A program made the translations under genes and the position numbers. Shown piece after piece: positions 8,182 through 20,863 of a DNA stretch of 20,863 nt. Under the pieces are notes generated by a model, which saw only the letters and a program-made list of their open reading frames with translations, did not search any database and had not been told where the DNA came from. The first letter of the stretch is position 1; the number at the start of each line of letters is the position of its first letter. This DNA is from a virus: IMG/VR virus record IMGVR_UViG_3300024518_000916, positions 1 to 20,863 of that record. One strand, given 5' to 3'.

Positions 8182-8648
8182 GCGTAAGCGCAATGGTTAA
8201 CGCCAACTTCGCTTCGTCGGGTGCGCAGCGCCTATCTACTACCATCACCAGTGCGTCACTGCTATGGAAGAAGGGAAAGAAAGAGTATGAGTTCCTAGGC
8301 TTCGACGCAGGAACAGACATCAAAGGTCTGTCTAGCTTCGGTAGTATTGCTAGCGGCTCCTACACAGACGGACTAGGCACTGGTCGCATCATCAGAGCGT
8401 TCTATGAGAACGATCATGGCGGCACGAACCCGCAGTCATGGTGGATATGCATAAGTACTACACCGGGCGATGCGGACACTACGTTCACAAAGTTGATCCT
8501 AGACGGCAACGAGCTACAACGTGCCGACGCAGATGCTACTGGAACAGTAAGTACTATTCGCTGGTGGCGCTGGGACTCTCCGGGTCCGGCAGACTCAATG
8601 ACCTTTGCTGGTGCTAATCCTGATGACTTTGAGTTGTGGTCTACATGA
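8178..8648 (+). CDS. fibre-associated small beta-rich protein
   Basis: A 156-residue protein. The ATG at 8178 overlaps the stop of the large fibre gene (ATGA), the usual coupled junction in this operon. The frame is open further upstream, but that region is the fibre gene in another frame. The sequence is rich in Gly, Ser, Thr and aromatic residues (PQSWWICISTTPGDADTTF, STIRWWRWDSPGPAD), with no signal peptide or membrane segment. The C-terminal two-thirds resembles short strand-rich domains found at the ends of phage fibres (DxxFTKLxLDGxEL followed by WRWDS and FxLW), so it may be a separately encoded fibre tip, chaperone or accessory adhesin. I cannot name a family. It ends by overlapping the sulfotransferase start, again ATGA. 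Confidence 0.8.
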   Translation: MSVSAMVNANFASSGAQRLSTTITSASLLWKKGKKEYEFLGFDAGTDIKGLSSFGSIASGSYTDGLGTGRIIRAFYENDHGGTNPQSWWICISTTPGDADTTFTKLILDGNELQRADADATGTVSTIRWWRWDSPGPADSMTFAGANPDDFELWST

Positions 8649-9295
8649 TAATCTCACACAGACTCAAGTTTGCATTCTTCAGAGTACCCAAGACAGGAAC
8701 CACCACTGCACAGTTCTTCTTGAGATGCTCGGGGGCGTTTGACGAAGAGGACATTCTGTCAGGCATGGGAGAGCACGGCTTTGCTCCCACTGATGGACTG
8801 CTCACAGAACCACGAGACATAGTGACACAGGCTCATTACACTCCTGCACAGGCAGTGGAGCATGGGCTTATAACACTGGAGCAGCTACGAGAATACAAGA
8901 CTGTATCCTTCATACGCAACCCATACGATAGACAGCTATCAGCCTACATACACGGCGTGGGTATTGTATGTGACCCAACCTACATCAAGCGTCTTATAAA
9001 GGATGCCCCACGTAGGGGGATACTACAAGCACAGCAGTCTGATTGGTTCTATATTGATGGCGAGCTAGTGGTCGAGCCAATGTTATTCAACGACTACGAG
9101 AGTCATCTACGAGAGCTGCTTGCCTACGTTGGTGGAATAGACTTCCCTATTATCCCACCTATGAACGCTAGGAACGCAGCCAAGAAAGAATACACGATGG
9201 AAGAGTGGATGAACCCAGAGTTCATGGCCTTCATTGAAGACAAGTACGCACGAGATATCGAGCTATATGAGGACACTAAATGGCAACGCAACTAA
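8645..9295 (+). CDS. PAPS-dependent sulfotransferase
   Basis: A 216-residue protein with the full set of sulfotransferase landmarks. It would move a sulfuryl group from PAPS to an acceptor hydroxyl, as carbohydrate and protein sulfotransferases do. The 5-prime-phosphosulfate loop is FFRVPKTGTTT at residues 11-21 (K16 key). The 3-prime-phosphate site is FIRNPYDRQLSAY at 89-101, with R91 and S99 at the expected spacing. H64 in TQAHYTP sits where the 2-O-sulfotransferase-like group has its catalytic His. The C-terminus (FIEDKYARDIELYED) matches the usual end of Sulfotransfer_2-type enzymes. No signal peptide or membrane anchor is seen, so it should act in the cytoplasm. I chose ATG at 8645 (ATGA overlap) over a GTG three codons upstream. 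It overlaps the following tail gene by 16 bases. The acceptor is unknown. Confidence 0.87.
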   Translation: MIISHRLKFAFFRVPKTGTTTAQFFLRCSGAFDEEDILSGMGEHGFAPTDGLLTEPRDIVTQAHYTPAQAVEHGLITLEQLREYKTVSFIRNPYDRQLSAYIHGVGIVCDPTYIKRLIKDAPRRGILQAQQSDWFYIDGELVVEPMLFNDYESHLRELLAYVGGIDFPIIPPMNARNAAKKEYTMEEWMNPEFMAFIEDKYARDIELYEDTKWQRN

Positions 9296-13155: not shown

Positions 13156-13296
13156 GTGGACGCAGGACATGTAGCAGCAGTACTTATAGTGGTAGCCCTT
13201 GTGGTCTACGCAGTAGCTAAGGTCGTCAAGGGTAATAGAAAGGAACGCACCGCACCAGTAAAGTCGGACGATGACGACGGACGCGGGCATAAGTGA
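13156..13296 (+). CDS. tiny single-span membrane protein of the lysis segment
   Basis: A 46-residue frame with GTG start at 13156 and TGA at 13294-13296. AAGGAGA ends 7 bases before the GTG, and the stop overlaps the next ATG by one base (TGATG), so both edges look like those of a real gene. Residues 6-24 (VAAVLIVVALVVYAVAKVV) form one membrane segment, followed by a basic (KGNRKERTAPVK) and then acidic (SDDDDG) tail. This suggests N-out, C-in topology by the positive-inside rule. It could be a holin partner, an antiholin or a minor membrane protein. It is much shorter than known inner-membrane spanins and lacks a coiled coil. The function call comes from location. Confidence 0.72.
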   Translation: MDAGHVAAVLIVVALVVYAVAKVVKGNRKERTAPVKSDDDDGRGHK

Positions 13297-13493
13297 TGGA
13301 GAATGTACAGACAATGATTGACGCGAAGGCACTAACAGGGACGTTGATGACAATGACCGCCGCCACCGGATCGTGGCTGGACGTGGCAGAACCTATTGTA
13401 ACCATGACGGTTACGATACTAGTAGGCGGTGCTACGTTATGGTACACCATCGAACGAGCACTTAAATTACGCAAAGAGAGGAAGGACAAATGA
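13296..13493 (+). CDS. putative holin
   Basis: A 65-residue protein with a hydrophobic centre, a single clear span around residues 32-52 (IVTMTVTILVGGATLWYTI) and a short, weakly hydrophobic stretch before it, ending in a strongly basic tail, RALKLRKERKDK. This resembles small class II holins such as T7 gp17.5, which also end in a Lys-rich tail after a Tyr/Trp-containing span. It would form the inner-membrane lesion that lets the endolysin reach the wall. I use ATG at 13296 (overlaps the previous stop as TGATG); a GTG one codon earlier is also in frame. Its stop overlaps the next gene (ATGA). The endolysin is encoded 6.5 kb downstream, so the lysis genes are split. Confidence 0.6.
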   Translation: MENVQTMIDAKALTGTLMTMTAATGSWLDVAEPIVTMTVTILVGGATLWYTIERALKLRKERKDK

Positions 13494-14707: not shown

Positions 14708-16306
14708 ATGGCTGAGAACGCAGGTTTCTTAGAACAACTCACTGGCACAGCAGTGGACGAGAGGGCGCAAGTGGACGCCAAGCTCCAAGAGGACGCCGGT
14801 ACTGGTGGTCGCCTCGGGGCTATGTTTAACTCGCTGGGCCAACAGGCAGGTGCTGGACTCGGCATCGCTGGGGCAGGGCTCATGAGTGGGCTCTCCGGTG
14901 GTCGCTTTGGTGGCACTAAAGGGGCAGGCTTCAAGTCTAACTTCGCTTCTGCTGCTGAAGAGGCTGAGACTAAGTTCGTGGCTGCTGGTGTAGGCATACA
15001 ACCAGAGGAGCTACAGGCTCGCAGAGCTATTCGTGAGCAACTGGCTGACATGCCTGACGACGGCACACACCAGTCACGCATCAAGATGGCGGAGAGAGCA
15101 ATAGAAATCTCCAACTCATTCGGTGACGCTGCTGGCGTGGCACGTGGGCTGGAGCAACTGCAGGCACTCAAGAAAGAGAAGCTGGAGTTCGACAAGCTAG
15201 GCTCACAGGCTAAGAAAGCCGAGGCTGACGCTACCGAGGCAGGCATCGTAAACGGCTACAACTCAGACGGTACTCCCGCTACTGGTATCTTGGGCATCAA
15301 GGATGGGTCGGCTGGTATCTTCACAGAAGAGAATGGAAAGCTAACACATAAGGCATTCAATAAAGGCTTCTCAATGGTTGAGCCGGGTGACACCGTAGGC
15401 ATCAAGCCTTTCGAGATAGCTAGCCAGATCAAGAAGAACAACGGCGTAGCTTACGTAGGCAAGATCAAGGGCCTAGCCTCTAGTGCCAACACAGCACTGG
15501 CTAAGACTGACCGCGTACTGAGCACACTGACTGACCTCTTCGACGAGGGCGGTGTAGAGTCTGTGATCGGTTTCTCAGGTGGCCTAATCACTGGCGTGGA
15601 CAACCTCGTCCGCAACGTCAGCGGCACGATCAACGCCTTTGCAGGACCCGGACAAGCTATTGACAGCAAGGCAGGCACCAACAAGGACGGCTCGGTACGT
15701 ACGTTTGACGGACGGTCAGGGTTGGCTAAGTTTGCGGCTGACGCTAGCAACTCATTCTCCTCACTCATTCAACTGCCAGCAGGGGTAGAACGTACCTCCG
15801 CAGCAGCCCAGCAGCACAGAGCAGCAGTCATGGAGATGGCCTACATGGCCGCCCGACTGGCTGAGCCCTCTAACCGTGGTCTGTCCGATAACGATATCAA
15901 GAACGCATTGGCTCGTATCGCAGGCGACACCTCCAACCCGCAGGTCATGATGAGGCGGTTCTTGGAGATGCAGGTAGATGCTGCCAACGAACTAGACTTC
16001 GAGCTCAGGCTCAGTCATGGCTCACTGGGGGCCAATGTATCTGACGACGCCATCAACACGGCGCTGGTAGGTAAGGGGTACGGAGAGTACAAGGCTCGTA
16101 AGGATGCACTGTTCGAGAAGTTCAACGTCACCGAACAGCAGGACGGCAGGGTTACGTTCGCTGAAGGCACTCTGATTGGTTCGGACGTCCAACCGGGCGA
16201 AGGCACTGGCCCGGTACAACAACCTGTGGACATAGACACTGCCACAGACGCAGAGGTACTAGCTGGGTTCGGGTTCGGGACGGATAAAGTTAAGGAAGAA
16301 GAATAA
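14708..16306 (+). CDS. internal virion / ejection protein, medium
   Basis: A 532-residue protein, second of a three-gene ejection-protein run. The N-terminal 85 residues are Gly/Ala rich (FNSLGQQAGAGLGIAGAGLM, then SGLSGGRFGGTKG), a possible membrane-active glycine-zipper region. Residues about 90-175 look like a long charged helix or coiled coil (ARRAIREQLADMPDD to EQLQALKKEKLEFDKL). A segment at about 355-430 (RTSAAAQQHRAAVMEMAYMA, then RGLSDNDIKNALARIAGD) resembles helical parts of other phage internal virion proteins. No enzymatic motif is seen. The ATG at 14708 follows TAGGAG (14693-14698), and the stop is one base from the next start. A role in forming the conduit for genome entry is inferred from gene order and composition. 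Confidence 0.75.
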   Translation: MAENAGFLEQLTGTAVDERAQVDAKLQEDAGTGGRLGAMFNSLGQQAGAGLGIAGAGLMSGLSGGRFGGTKGAGFKSNFASAAEEAETKFVAAGVGIQPEELQARRAIREQLADMPDDGTHQSRIKMAERAIEISNSFGDAAGVARGLEQLQALKKEKLEFDKLGSQAKKAEADATEAGIVNGYNSDGTPATGILGIKDGSAGIFTEENGKLTHKAFNKGFSMVEPGDTVGIKPFEIASQIKKNNGVAYVGKIKGLASSANTALAKTDRVLSTLTDLFDEGGVESVIGFSGGLITGVDNLVRNVSGTINAFAGPGQAIDSKAGTNKDGSVRTFDGRSGLAKFAADASNSFSSLIQLPAGVERTSAAAQQHRAAVMEMAYMAARLAEPSNRGLSDNDIKNALARIAGDTSNPQVMMRRFLEMQVDAANELDFELRLSHGSLGANVSDDAINTALVGKGYGEYKARKDALFEKFNVTEQQDGRVTFAEGTLIGSDVQPGEGTGPVQQPVDIDTATDAEVLAGFGFGTDKVKEEE

Positions 16307-16307
16307 T

Positions 16308-19300
16308 ATGGCAGTACAAGACAGACAGCGTAGACGAGCCGAAGAGCTACGGGCAGGTAGGGTACCTCAGACCTCAGACGAGGGTCATAGGGTCAACGCT
16401 ACTGTAGCCAAGCAGTCCTATCCGATACGGGATGTACCATTAGGTCCGGGCGGAGGCCCCGGTGTGGATGCACCACTGAATGCAGAGATGCTCAACCAAC
16501 AGGCTGACGCAGCGCAGGCTATCAGCGCCACGGGCGCACCTGTACAGCCAATAGACTTAATGACTATCCCTGACGCCAAGACGGCGATGCGTATAGCTAC
16601 CATAGCTAACGATCAGGGACGTGAGGGTATGGGAGACGCAGACTACGAGCGTGCTATTCTCATGTTGAAGAACTTTGAGAAGGCTAACCCCGGAGTTGCT
16701 CAGGCATTTCGTGAGAATGAGGCCATCAACAAGTGGTACGACGACAACCTTGACGTCACACCCCACCGATCCAGCCGTGTACAGAACGCACAGGGAGCAG
16801 CCATCAGGCAGCGACCAGTAGGCACTGCACGTGGTCCGGGTCGTATCAACACAGACGTGGGCTTCATCCCACAGACCATAGCTGACCTAGACCCAGTACC
16901 CGGTGACTCACGTGAGGCTGTCATAGATCGCCTTGAGAGTGAGGGCGTAGACACTACGTCAGGTGCTGGTGGGTTCTGGGATAACGTGGGCTTCGCTATT
17001 AAGCTCAACGACTCCGGTGCACAGGCCAAGGCCATCACTGGTGTAGCAATGGACAACCTAGCAGAAGCAGGCATCGTACTCCCAGAGGGGGTACGTCCCA
17101 TCACAGTCAACCAAGACCTCGGACAGCTAGAGGTACTCATGCCTACCTCCGACGGTAAGGTACGTCGTACCCTAGTAGAGCCAGAGGTGCTTAACCTAGC
17201 TAGTGCTGGCAGGCTCGCTGACCTAGAAGAACTCATGGCTGGTGTATACGCAGCTACTGCTACCATACGTGGTGGTCCTAGCTCCAAGCACCCCTTCGTA
17301 CGTGAGCTAGTAGGTGACTTCGCTGGTAGGAACGTAGGCATCATGCTTGAGTCCATTATCAGTGGACTACAGGGCGAGGCTGACCTGCAAGACATGGTCA
17401 ATGCCTTCAAGTTTGCTGACAATGTTACAGAGTCAGGGCTCAACACCCTTGCCTCTCGTGGGCTTGTGCGTACTGGTAACCTCATAGGACGTGGAAGGAA
17501 GGCCTTCGGTGACAAGTTCGCCAGTGGGTCCGAGACTGCAGAGGTCATCAACAGGAACATAGACGAAGCTGCTGACATAGTAGAGGACGTTAATGCTCTG
17601 GTAGGTGATGGCGCAGACGTACTCCCGTTCACTGTAGAGACAGGTAGTCTTAGCCAGAAGTCAGCACAGAATGTCAATGCTCGAGTCAACACGCTGAACA
17701 ACACCAAGGCTGACGCCATTGAGCTGACACGCCGTGAGAGAGTCAAGACACTAGCTGAGGCCAACCGTAGAGTAGCGGAGAGACACTCCCCTGCGGATGG
17801 TGTGGCAGGGTACGACCCACATGACCTAGCCAAGGACTCTGCGGGCACAGTCAACACCGCCCGACAGGTTGCGGTAGACGCACAACGATCTAAGCTAGGA
17901 CAGGTGAGTGTACGTACTAACCCTGACACTGGGCTCACACGCTATAGCTTCCGAGGGGAAGTAGACGCCACTACGGCAGGCTCGGGCTCACAGATGGGGG
18001 AGCACGGCATAGATGTAGCCTTCTCCGACGACGCGGTGCATATAGTCAACGCCTTCGCTGGGGAGAAGTTCGACGGAGTGACTGGCAAGCTATTCAATGA
18101 GATACTTGCGGAAGCAGGGGATCGTCCCATCACTTTAGGCGACAGTGTGTCGGCCTCTGCCAGAAAGGCAGTGGAAGGTATGCGTCGTAGAGGATGGGTT
18201 ATAGAGCAGAATCCTAGAGCCTCAATAGACAAGAAGGATGGTGTGATGACTGCCGTCAGCGAGGACGGCTTCCTAGAGCCAGTGTACACTATCACTGCAA
18301 GGCCCGGAGAGATCGTAGCACCTAAGCTCATAGCTGACGCTACCTTTGACCGTGAGGTCACAGAGGCCACCGTAGAGGGCATAGAGGAGCTACTCCCTAT
18401 TGCACAGGCTCGCACAGACGATGCCAACTTCCTGCTGAAGCAACAGATAGGATGGTCGGAGCAGACACAGCGCTCTAACTTCTACCTAGAGAACAGCAGA
18501 GCCTCTGGTCTAAGCCAGCAGGTACGTCGACTCCAAGCTAAGGTGCGCACCGCCCTGACAGGCGTTGAGGCATCCGAAGCTGACAAGGCACTAGCCATTG
18601 CTGTACGTCGTGAGACTACAGAGGATGGGGATGTACTTATCACTGGGCTGTACGACGACCAGCTAGACATAGGCAACCTACTCAACTCCCGTGCCAAGCT
18701 CAACCAGATAGCCGAGGCTACTGGGGACGCCGACATGGCTGCTATCGTGAACACCATAGACAACCTGCTCAAGAGCAAGCCATACATCAACAAGGCCACG
18801 AACAGGGCTAGGCCAGCACAGACAGCAGGCATACGTGAGTCGTACCAACGAGCACGTCAGATGTCAGCAGAGATGGATGAGATCAGTGCAGTCGTAGATG
18901 CCAGCAAGATATTCAAGCGCAACGCTGACGGTGAGCTTATCAACACAGACCTTACTGCGATAGGGCGTGTGCTTGCTAACGGCAGTGCCTTCATGCAACA
19001 CATGATGCCTGTCATTAAGCGGGGACCTGAGCTAGCTACACAGACACGTGGCGCTATCGCTGACTTGTACCGCAAGGAAGTACTGGACTCAGCCCGTGGC
19101 TGGTCTGCAACGTCTCACAAGAGGTTCCTAGATAAGTATGGGGTGGCTATTGATGCCTTGTACGGCGCAGAGGAGCAGCAGATATGGAAGTCGTTCAGGC
19201 CACCGTCTGGTGAAGTACTCAACAGAGCACAGAGGGCCAACCAAATCATAGAGACCAAGTTCAACAGGCTTGTGGCCAAGTATGCTCCTGACCCGGAGAC

Positions 19301-20021
19301 TGTGAAGTGGACTAACCCACGTGACATCGTAGCATCGGTGAACACTATGGGTGCTCGCAAGGGTGGCGCGTTCATGGATGAGCTCAAGCGGCTTGACCCT
19401 AGCTTGCATGCCTCTGTGCAGAAGCAGTCCATAGACCAGACCAGAAAGAACCTACATGAGCTGTTCTTCGATCCTAACCGTGACGCAGGGAACCTGCAGA
19501 CCGGGGTACAGATGAGGAAGTGGTTCAATGACCGTAAGGATGCACTCAAGGCTCTACACGGTGACCAGTACGTCACTGACCTAGAGACTGTGGTACGTGG
19601 AGCTGAGCTAGACGCCAAGAGGCTTGTACTCCGAGGCTCTGCACCAGCGACACAGCATGACCTTATCAGGGTTACACGCTCAATCCTAGGCCCGTTGTCT
19701 AAGCCACAACGTCAAATCTCGGCAGGCAACTACATCAACAACAAGAGACTTGCCGCTAGAGTCATGGACATCTACAGTGACCCCGATATGCTCAGAGCAC
19801 TCAAGCAGAGCAAGGGTGTGAGTGTACGAAGCCAAGCAGGTATCGCATTGTTTGTGCGCCTAGGACTGGCTGAGGCTATGGGTATCCCTGCTCCAGAGAA
19901 TGTCAACCGACCTGACACATGGTCACCTGAGTTCAAGGCACAGATATCTGCGGCGTACGAGGCCATAGACTTCTGGTCCAAGGACGGAGAGGATGAGCAC
20001 TTAGATGAGACTGGGAACTAA
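16308..20021 (+). CDS. large internal virion / ejection protein
   Basis: The largest gene, 1237 residues, almost free of cysteine and mostly helical. Its size and position make it the counterpart of T7 gp16-type ejection proteins, which leave the virion and help carry DNA across the host envelope. I see no lytic transglycosylase or peptidase motif. Residues about 185-300 contain a segment with PITVNQDLGQLEVLMPTSDG that I associate with large phage virion proteins. Residues about 542-666 look like a degenerate acetyltransferase-type (GNAT-like) fold as found in phage polyvalent proteins: FDGVTGKLFNEIL, then ITLGDSVSASARKAVEGM and RRRGWVIEQNP. The remainder to the C-terminus is charged helical sequence, with a DELKRLDPSLHASVQKQS-type region near 1020-1040. 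The ATG at 16308 lies one base after the previous stop. Confidence 0.8.
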   Translation: MAVQDRQRRRAEELRAGRVPQTSDEGHRVNATVAKQSYPIRDVPLGPGGGPGVDAPLNAEMLNQQADAAQAISATGAPVQPIDLMTIPDAKTAMRIATIANDQGREGMGDADYERAILMLKNFEKANPGVAQAFRENEAINKWYDDNLDVTPHRSSRVQNAQGAAIRQRPVGTARGPGRINTDVGFIPQTIADLDPVPGDSREAVIDRLESEGVDTTSGAGGFWDNVGFAIKLNDSGAQAKAITGVAMDNLAEAGIVLPEGVRPITVNQDLGQLEVLMPTSDGKVRRTLVEPEVLNLASAGRLADLEELMAGVYAATATIRGGPSSKHPFVRELVGDFAGRNVGIMLESIISGLQGEADLQDMVNAFKFADNVTESGLNTLASRGLVRTGNLIGRGRKAFGDKFASGSETAEVINRNIDEAADIVEDVNALVGDGADVLPFTVETGSLSQKSAQNVNARVNTLNNTKADAIELTRRERVKTLAEANRRVAERHSPADGVAGYDPHDLAKDSAGTVNTARQVAVDAQRSKLGQVSVRTNPDTGLTRYSFRGEVDATTAGSGSQMGEHGIDVAFSDDAVHIVNAFAGEKFDGVTGKLFNEILAEAGDRPITLGDSVSASARKAVEGMRRRGWVIEQNPRASIDKKDGVMTAVSEDGFLEPVYTITARPGEIVAPKLIADATFDREVTEATVEGIEELLPIAQARTDDANFLLKQQIGWSEQTQRSNFYLENSRASGLSQQVRRLQAKVRTALTGVEASEADKALAIAVRRETTEDGDVLITGLYDDQLDIGNLLNSRAKLNQIAEATGDADMAAIVNTIDNLLKSKPYINKATNRARPAQTAGIRESYQRARQMSAEMDEISAVVDASKIFKRNADGELINTDLTAIGRVLANGSAFMQHMMPVIKRGPELATQTRGAIADLYRKEVLDSARGWSATSHKRFLDKYGVAIDALYGAEEQQIWKSFRPPSGEVLNRAQRANQIIETKFNRLVAKYAPDPETVKWTNPRDIVASVNTMGARKGGAFMDELKRLDPSLHASVQKQSIDQTRKNLHELFFDPNRDAGNLQTGVQMRKWFNDRKDALKALHGDQYVTDLETVVRGAELDAKRLVLRGSAPATQHDLIRVTRSILGPLSKPQRQISAGNYINNKRLAARVMDIYSDPDMLRALKQSKGVSVRSQAGIALFVRLGLAEAMGIPAPENVNRPDTWSPEFKAQISAAYEAIDFWSKDGEDEHLDETGN

Positions 20022-20313
20022 ACAAGAACTATTCGCACAGCTACTGGGTGAACACCTAGTGTGGTTGTATGAACAAGGGTACAAGGTACGCATGGGCGAT
20101 GTATGGGCCACGGACGGGCACAAGGTAAACAGCAACCACTACCTTAAGCTAGCCGCTGACCTCAATCTCTTCTACGGTGGGAAGTATCTCACTGACACAG
20201 AAGACCACAGGAAGTCTGGGGAGAAGTGGGAAACAAGACACTCTCTCTGCAGATGGGGTGGGCGCTTTCAGGATGGCAACCACTACTCACTGATACATTA
20301 TGGGAGGATGTAG
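20005..20313 (+). CDS. endolysin, M15-type (D-Ala-D-Ala carboxypeptidase/VanY-like) peptidase
   Basis: A 102-residue wall-degrading peptidase. The pattern matches phage M15 peptidases: an N-terminal helix KQELFAQLLGEHLVWLYEQG, then SNHYLKLAADLNLF, giving ligands H45 and D52 in the family form SxHxxxxAxD, then YLTDTEDHRKSGEKWE, and WGGRFQDGNHYSLIH with H93 as third ligand and D90 in the acid-x-x-His position. It would cut peptide cross-links in peptidoglycan. No signal peptide is present, so export should depend on a holin, for which 13296-13493 is the candidate. At 102 residues it is a little shorter than relatives I know (about 120-140), mainly in the segment before the first His. The ATG at 20005 overlaps the end of the ejection gene by 17 bases, with GGAGAGGATGAG just upstream. 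Its stop overlaps the next start (TAGTG). Confidence 0.85.
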   Translation: MRLGTKQELFAQLLGEHLVWLYEQGYKVRMGDVWATDGHKVNSNHYLKLAADLNLFYGGKYLTDTEDHRKSGEKWETRHSLCRWGGRFQDGNHYSLIHYGRM

Positions 20314-20702
20314 TGTCTAGCAAACTATGGATAGGACTAGCCTTATTACTAACAACTATTACGTCGGCTGAAGAGACAATGGTACCGTCTCCTCTTGAGT
20401 TTGCATGCGAGTGGCTAGACCTTGACTGCACTGGTATCGAACAGCCCACAGTAGTATACACTAATATAATGGGAGACATGGGGCTCTACGGAGCGTACTT
20501 CCCCGGAGAGTCTATAGTAGTCATAGACCCCCACGCCCCTGCACACACTGTGGTGCATGAGGTCACGCACTACGTACTACATGAAGCTGGCTTCACCGAC
20601 TTGGATAGATGCCTCAGTGAGGAGGTCGCGCGCAGAGTAGGGGATGCATGGGCCAAGCAGGCCTATACCACCGGCTGGAAGAAGAAATACGGGTGTGTCT
20701 AA
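20313..20702 (+). CDS. small exported HExxH zinc metallopeptidase
   Basis: A 129-residue protein with GTG start at 20313, overlapping the endolysin stop (TAGTG), and GGGAGG at 20302-20307 as ribosome site. An upstream in-frame ATG at 20226 would place 29 residues ahead of the signal peptide and is less likely. Residues 1-19 (SSKLWIGLALLLTTITSA) form a Sec signal peptide with a probable signal-peptidase I site after T-S-A19. The zinc motif HEVTH at 82-86 (ligands H82, H86; catalytic E83) is followed 17-18 residues on by SEEVARRVGDAW, giving E103 or E104 as third ligand, as in gluzincins. Four cysteines (C32, C39, C100, C128) could form disulfides in the periplasm. The rest is short and I recognise no named family. 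Coupling to the endolysin suggests a lysis-time role. Confidence 0.82.
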   Translation: MSSKLWIGLALLLTTITSAEETMVPSPLEFACEWLDLDCTGIEQPTVVYTNIMGDMGLYGAYFPGESIVVIDPHAPAHTVVHEVTHYVLHEAGFTDLDRCLSEEVARRVGDAWAKQAYTTGWKKKYGCV

Positions 20703-20757: not shown

Positions 20758-20863
20758 ATGTCTAAGAATCTATCAATACCACATGGTCGTAATGGCAACC
20801 CCATGACGCTCGATCCCTTATTGATAGAGATGGGTTGCTATGAGGGCATTTCACGAATGTCCA
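20758..20863 (+). CDS. start of a truncated unknown gene
   Basis: ATG at 20758, preceded by AAGGAGAG at 20745-20752, opens a frame that stays open to the right edge (35 codons, beginning MSKNLSIPHGRNGNPMTLD). The strong ribosome site and lack of stops support a real gene. Nothing in the visible residues identifies a family. A terminase small subunit or another late gene is possible but not shown by the sequence. Confidence 0.65.
   Translation, partial: MSKNLSIPHGRNGNPMTLDPLLIEMGCYEGISRMS

Follow-up and report, generated by a model that had tools for sequence, protein, structure and literature searches.

In the Kongari survey of spanins, no candidate was detected in about one in seven phages of Gram-negative bacteria (91 of 677; PMC6139136). 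The locus studied here lies near the end of a viral DNA stretch of 20,863 nucleotides (the window), where a short open reading frame with an HExxH motif follows directly on an endolysin gene. The locus raises the question whether the encoded protein is an exported zinc peptidase, whether it belongs to lysis, and whether it could do the job of spanins.

The zincin ORF (20313-20702, 129 aa; window features are on the plus strand unless marked otherwise) starts with a GTG codon at 20313-20315, which shares one G with the TAG stop codon of the endolysin at 20311-20313, so that the junction reads TAGTG (20311-20315). The Shine-Dalgarno sequence GGGAGG (20302-20307) is located 5 nt upstream of this GTG. 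A longer form of 158 aa, starting at the GTG at 20226, was rejected, because the ribosome site is the one at 20302 and the signal peptides of the family begin at the shorter form. The N-terminus reads VSSKLWIGLALLLTTITSA followed by EE and shows a short basic n-region and a hydrophobic core, which together with the hydropathy points to a Sec-type signal peptide of residues 1-19 (20313-20369) with probable cleavage after A19 (between TSA and EE). The mature part contains the motif HEVTH (residues 82-86, 20556-20570) and the sequence LSEE (residues 101-104), in which E103 (20619-20621), three residues past Cys100, is the candidate third zinc ligand. Four cysteines are present: Cys32 (20406-20408), Cys39 (20427-20429), Cys100 (20610-20612) and Cys128 (20694-20696). 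The original prediction of a 129-residue ORF with a Sec-like signal, HEVTH, SEE and four cysteines, starting inside the endolysin stop codon, was thus borne out in every element.

The window zincin had no convincing match in cultured phages, Pfam, NCBIfam or viral contigs when these were searched directly. Therefore, the major capsid protein was used as a route to related viral contigs; it matched many of them, and the records behind 20 were searched for the zincin. Four homologues were found in three of these records (two in G002, one each in G003 and G005). An alignment search added the zincins of L188, L190 and L193, that of G007 was spotted by reading cassettes, and those of L121 and L156 were identified by a profile search. 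The family comprises eleven members including the window protein, ten of them from records of related phages. The L188 zincin shares 54% aligned identity with the window protein (57% by tblastn). The ten aligned members share H82, E83, H86, E103, A106, Y126 and the four cysteines without exception; the L156 zincin is truncated at the contig end, with the first three cysteines visible. Comparison of the window and L188 zincins resulted in a pN/pS of 0.40, with pS, at 0.76, near saturation, which indicates purifying selection. Judged from this ratio and from the invariant motif, glutamate and cysteines, the zincin ORF is a genuine gene and no chance ORF.

No family member was found among 50,697 cultured-phage records. 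Weak tblastn matches in phages and plasmids were unconvincing with the exception of gp16 of the Pelagibacter phage HTVC112P, which the family profile confirmed as a relative (2.8e-7) and which has no export signal. The match in L002 was discarded: it is a chance match of 13 residues, and the longer protein that contains it resembles a cytosine methyltransferase. Two scans of bacterial genome contigs confirmed no relatives; since strict patterns were used, absence from bacteria is not established by these scans. A weaker relative is present in L225, an unrelated viral contig of 67 kb (L225:4632-5195); this HExxH protein is anchored by a TM segment and is possibly a further envelope zincin. In the L193 member (L193:1547-2437) the zincin is fused, behind the signal peptide, to a GNAT acetyltransferase domain (PF00583, 5.9e-7), which is odd for an exported protein and is possibly an assembly or frameshift artefact; a viral scan for similar copies returned L193 itself as the sole match.

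The fold of the window zincin was predicted with AlphaFold using the ten-sequence family alignment, which superseded a poor single-sequence model (pLDDT 54.5). The resulting model has a pTM of 0.79 and a pLDDT of 90.2, which rises to 95-98 across the greater part of the mature domain. The predicted strands 46-49, 60-62 and 68-71 form a beta-sheet upstream of the helix that carries HExxH (78-91), which is followed by a helix with the candidate third-ligand glutamate (99-113), as expected for a gluzincin or minigluzincin. Top PDB matches in Foldseek were IrrE/PprI, a SprT-like DPC protease and selecase, none with an E-value below 0.001, and VIA-align returned lugdulysin, ERAP1 and IrrE with Z at most 7; these leading matches are HExxH proteins. 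The best match among viral models was an IrrE-like phage protein (3e-4). The family profile matches IrrE at 0.017, and other family members match Peptidase M78 (best 3.5e-8) and phrog_87 (best 1.1e-7), while the window zincin itself matched no Pfam family, M78 included, up to an E-value of 10. The model thus supports a minigluzincin fold (IrrE/PprI, SprT) with gluzincin-type active-site residues. A model lacking a metzincin- or gluzincin-type active site would have counted against the original proposal, and this case did not arise. The site is gluzincin-like, with HExxH and the downstream glutamate; the metzincin reading was dropped because HExxHxxGxxH is absent.

The same residues bear on the possibility that the protein is structural, for example an envelope binder or a plug built on a zincin fold with no peptidase activity. 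Both histidines, the catalytic glutamate and the candidate third-ligand glutamate are invariant in ten aligned proteins that are mostly only 20-40% identical, and a purely structural role is considered very improbable.

Peptidase M78 (IrrE/ImmA) is a cytosolic enzyme that acts on an HTH repressor. The zincin family shares with the IrrE/PprI N-terminal domain and with phage minigluzincins (phrog_87, phrog_1233, DUF6782) the strand core, the HExxH helix and the following glutamate helix. In contrast to M78/IrrE, however, its members are exported, carry four invariant cysteines, have no HTH domain and occur in lysis cassettes; the window zincin has an export-type N-terminus, and no HTH gene was seen on reading the ORFs beside the lysis-cassette zincins. 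SprT-like proteases share the HExxH minigluzincin fold as well, but the SprT-like protein of G018 lacks both an export signal and the four-cysteine pattern. This G018 protein (PF10263, 1.2e-12; G018:22084-22428 on the minus strand, equal to L209:2084-2428, minus strand) is flanked by a GH24-type endolysin on one side and a membrane protein on the other.

Export could be judged from hydropathy and motifs, which indicated a Sec or lipoprotein signal in all eleven members. The N-terminal hydropathy was 2.1-3.3 in the 11 zincins (window, 2.14) compared to -0.08 to 0.95 in 14 cytosolic relatives, and a value of 2.1 was reached by only 6-7 of the 59-66 genes called in three related genomes, zincins included. 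The G007 zincin contains the lipobox LAGC (MKTMILLCLSLAGC followed by TT) and is a lipoprotein. Since these proteins are exported, their four invariant cysteines point to two disulfides, which would probably stabilise the zincin. Export, the cysteines and endolysin coupling set this family apart from the common late-operon phage minigluzincins. The window protein is very probably an exported zinc peptidase.

To place the protein in lysis, the gene neighbourhoods were compared. The window endolysin (20005-20313, 102 aa) is of M15 type; it matches PF13539 (Peptidase_M15_4) with an E-value of 4e-4, below the curated cut-off, and the endolysin family phrog_1768 with 1e-3. In the window and in G002, G003, G005, G007, L188 and L156 the zincin ORF begins before the endolysin ORF ends, and in L190 both are part of the same cassette with two more genes between them. 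Eight of the eleven zincins are thus found in lysis cassettes behind differing endolysins. These are M15_4-like in the window and G003, of a second M15 type in G002, G005 and G007, and of the GH24/Phage_lysozyme type in L188 and L190 (4e-10 and 3e-12, respectively); the L156 endolysin is another M15-like protein by motif, with no Pfam match. The endolysin type varies and the zincin is constant, which suggests that the endolysin was exchanged while the zincin stayed. The zincin is also present in all seven records read that extend as far as the endolysin and contain homologues of the virion genes at 14708-16306 or 16308-20021. Gene order therefore supports a conserved tie of the zincin to lysis cassettes, whether the endolysin is of an M15 type or of GH24.

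Further genes recur in these neighbourhoods: a small WGDAFID protein, a phrog_8198 or phrog_5335 protein and the membrane protein phrog_2524, which has no annotated function and may be a holin. The short conserved WGDAFID protein is found in five lysis cassettes, those of L188 (L188:5217-5471), G002, G003, G005 and G007. The gene that starts at 20758 in the window and is cut by the record end (20758-20863) resembles the phrog_8198 gene behind the L193 zincin, and phrog_8198 is also present in the G003 cassette. A holin candidate in the window is a 66-aa protein with one hydrophobic segment (13293-13493), which is weakly conserved in G007. In the L190 cassette the putative holin is separated from the zincin by an SPFH/Band 7 domain protein (L190:3339-3851, 2e-20). 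Elsewhere in the window, a sulfotransferase-family protein (8636-9295; PF03567, 8e-10) is encoded between fibre-like and tail-tube-like genes, and a 412-aa frame (16700-17938, minus strand) is open antisense to a 1237-aa virion gene, probably as a compositional effect.

Three members (G002b, L121 and L193) do not adjoin an endolysin, and the neighbourhood of the L121 zincin contains none. The second zincin of G002 (L185:1402-1905, minus strand) is exported, divergent and far from the lysis genes of the same genome. Both cases would fit a protease whose work in the envelope concerns the infected cell and not lysis (superinfection exclusion, inactivation of a periplasmic defence or removal of receptors against re-adsorption by progeny), with its gene placed in the late operon by convenience; phage minigluzincins are indeed found in many settings. 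However, a change of endolysin type leaves the zincin gene in its place next to the endolysin, and such a function is regarded as improbable. Position in the late operon is by itself weak evidence, and the chief argument against the lysis reading is that phage minigluzincins are frequent there: cytosolic zincins also occur near endolysins, in L012, L013 and L017 directly behind an Rz/Rz1-like pair, and so does the SprT-like protein of G018. Taken together, an exported zincin of lysis cassettes is well supported, and a role at lysis is probable.

It was then asked whether spanins accompany the zincin. The claim that the window contains no spanins carries little weight, because the record is a fragment of 20.9 kb and absence from the whole genome cannot be judged from the window alone. 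ORFs on both strands were scanned for lipoboxes with a procedure that recovers lambda Rz1, lambda Bor and the T7 o-spanin. In seven zincin-bearing records (G002, G003, G005, G007, G050, G051 and G052, possibly incomplete) no credible o-spanin or u-spanin was found; the only candidates had no o-spanin features, apart from the G007 zincin itself. The zincin does not qualify as a spanin either. With regard to two-component spanins (an o-spanin with a lipobox and an i-spanin with an N-terminal TM segment and a coiled coil), the window zincin has no lipobox and consists of a single globular domain, and of the lipobox and C-terminal TM segment of unimolecular spanins the window protein has neither and the G007 copy the lipobox only.

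Among relatives that lack the zincin, G013 has a clear Rz1-like gene and G011 and G014 have other lipoproteins, but the scan of G017, G018 and G019 gave no spanin-like lipoprotein. The absence of spanins thus fits replacement by the zincin and is not specific for it. The proposal of an exported zincin as a spanin alternative is partly supported, by its fold, export and tie to lysis cassettes. Of 34 loci with the endolysin type of the window, 12 have a nearby lipobox ORF, eight of which are Rz1-like by reading; the exported zincin was absent from the 28 records of these loci that were searched, with a query that does match elsewhere. Spanin-like genes therefore lie near the endolysin in 8 of 34 M15 loci versus 0 of 7 zincin cassettes, numbers too small for proof.

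The T7-like contig G052/L193 bears on the question by gene order. It encodes a fibre-like protein, a holin-like protein, TerS (phrog_891, 1.3e-11), small genes, the zincin, a phrog_8198 protein and TerL (phrog_38, 6.7e-95), and T7 has the order fibre, holin, TerS, two Rz-like spanins and TerL. By this alignment of gene orders, the L193 zincin lies where T7 has its spanins, the terminase of this phage being of another type; the arrangement is seen in one contig. The zincin could also be an accessory peptidase of lysis that trims wall-linked proteins or cleaves the holin or another membrane protein of the cassette and so speeds lysis, while rupture of the outer membrane falls to physical stress or to a spanin that escaped recognition. 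The synteny of the cassettes fits this equally, spanin genes are frequently overlooked or miscalled in annotation (PMC6139136), and beside the G002 cassette a protein with a TM segment and a helix (24877-25248), which has no visible partner, could be an i-spanin. The lack of a credible o-spanin or u-spanin candidate in the zincin-bearing records and the T7 spanin slot of the L193 zincin argue against an accessory role, which is considered unlikely.

The reading preferred here, given about an even chance, is that of a small exported zinc endopeptidase of minigluzincin fold that acts on the envelope at lysis, possibly in a spanin-like job. Translation of the zincin would be coupled to that of the endolysin; the protein would be exported by Sec or, as in G007, anchored by a lipid, and would fold under the oxidising conditions of the periplasm and be able to bind zinc there. 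Its most likely job would be to cut proteins that connect the layers of the envelope (outer membrane, wall and inner membrane), for instance proteins of the outer membrane or proteins linked to the wall; with the wall cut by the endolysin, the envelope would then open. Proteolysis would in this way achieve what spanins achieve by membrane fusion. Replacement of spanins by the zincin is plausible; that it actually does their job is conceivable, at somewhat less than even chances, and the general notion of a proteolytic spanin alternative, in which an exported zinc endopeptidase of a phage would open a Gram-negative envelope by cutting envelope proteins, is put forward tentatively.

In the literature searched, no zincin was described as a lysis component, and combinations of spanin with HExxH and of phage zincin with lysis gave nothing. 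The zincin fold is already known; the exported, cysteine-bearing and endolysin-coupled form appears to be new. With its gene overlapping those of several differing endolysins, this conserved exported protease is a concrete, testable candidate, and a proteolytic alternative, if true, would account for some of the phages in which no spanin is recognised. Judged by the papers searched, confirmation would make it the first zinc protease of a lysis system, and it would also be a possible partner of endolysins against Gram-negative cells.

Compared with known systems, the zincin shares its position in the lysis cassette with two-component spanins (lambda Rz/Rz1, T7 gp18.5/18.7), and its location between TerS and TerL in L193 and the lipoprotein form in G007 add to this likeness. 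In contrast to them, it is a single globular, enzyme-like domain with neither a coiled-coil inner-membrane subunit nor a proline-rich lipoprotein. Like unimolecular spanins it is a single-gene envelope component of the lysis cassette, with a lipobox in the G007 copy, but it has an enzyme-type fold and no C-terminal TM segment. Disruptins are cationic-peptide lysis proteins, and LysB is a mycolyl-arabinogalactan esterase with a fold unrelated to that of the zincin; unlike disruptins, the zincin would be a folded zinc enzyme and not a cationic peptide. With the disruptins (named in PMC9239132) it would share a non-spanin route to outer-membrane disruption, and like mycobacteriophage LysB, an extra lysis-cassette enzyme for the outer envelope layer (PMC5707550), it is proposed to add an enzyme for that layer to the lysis cassette.
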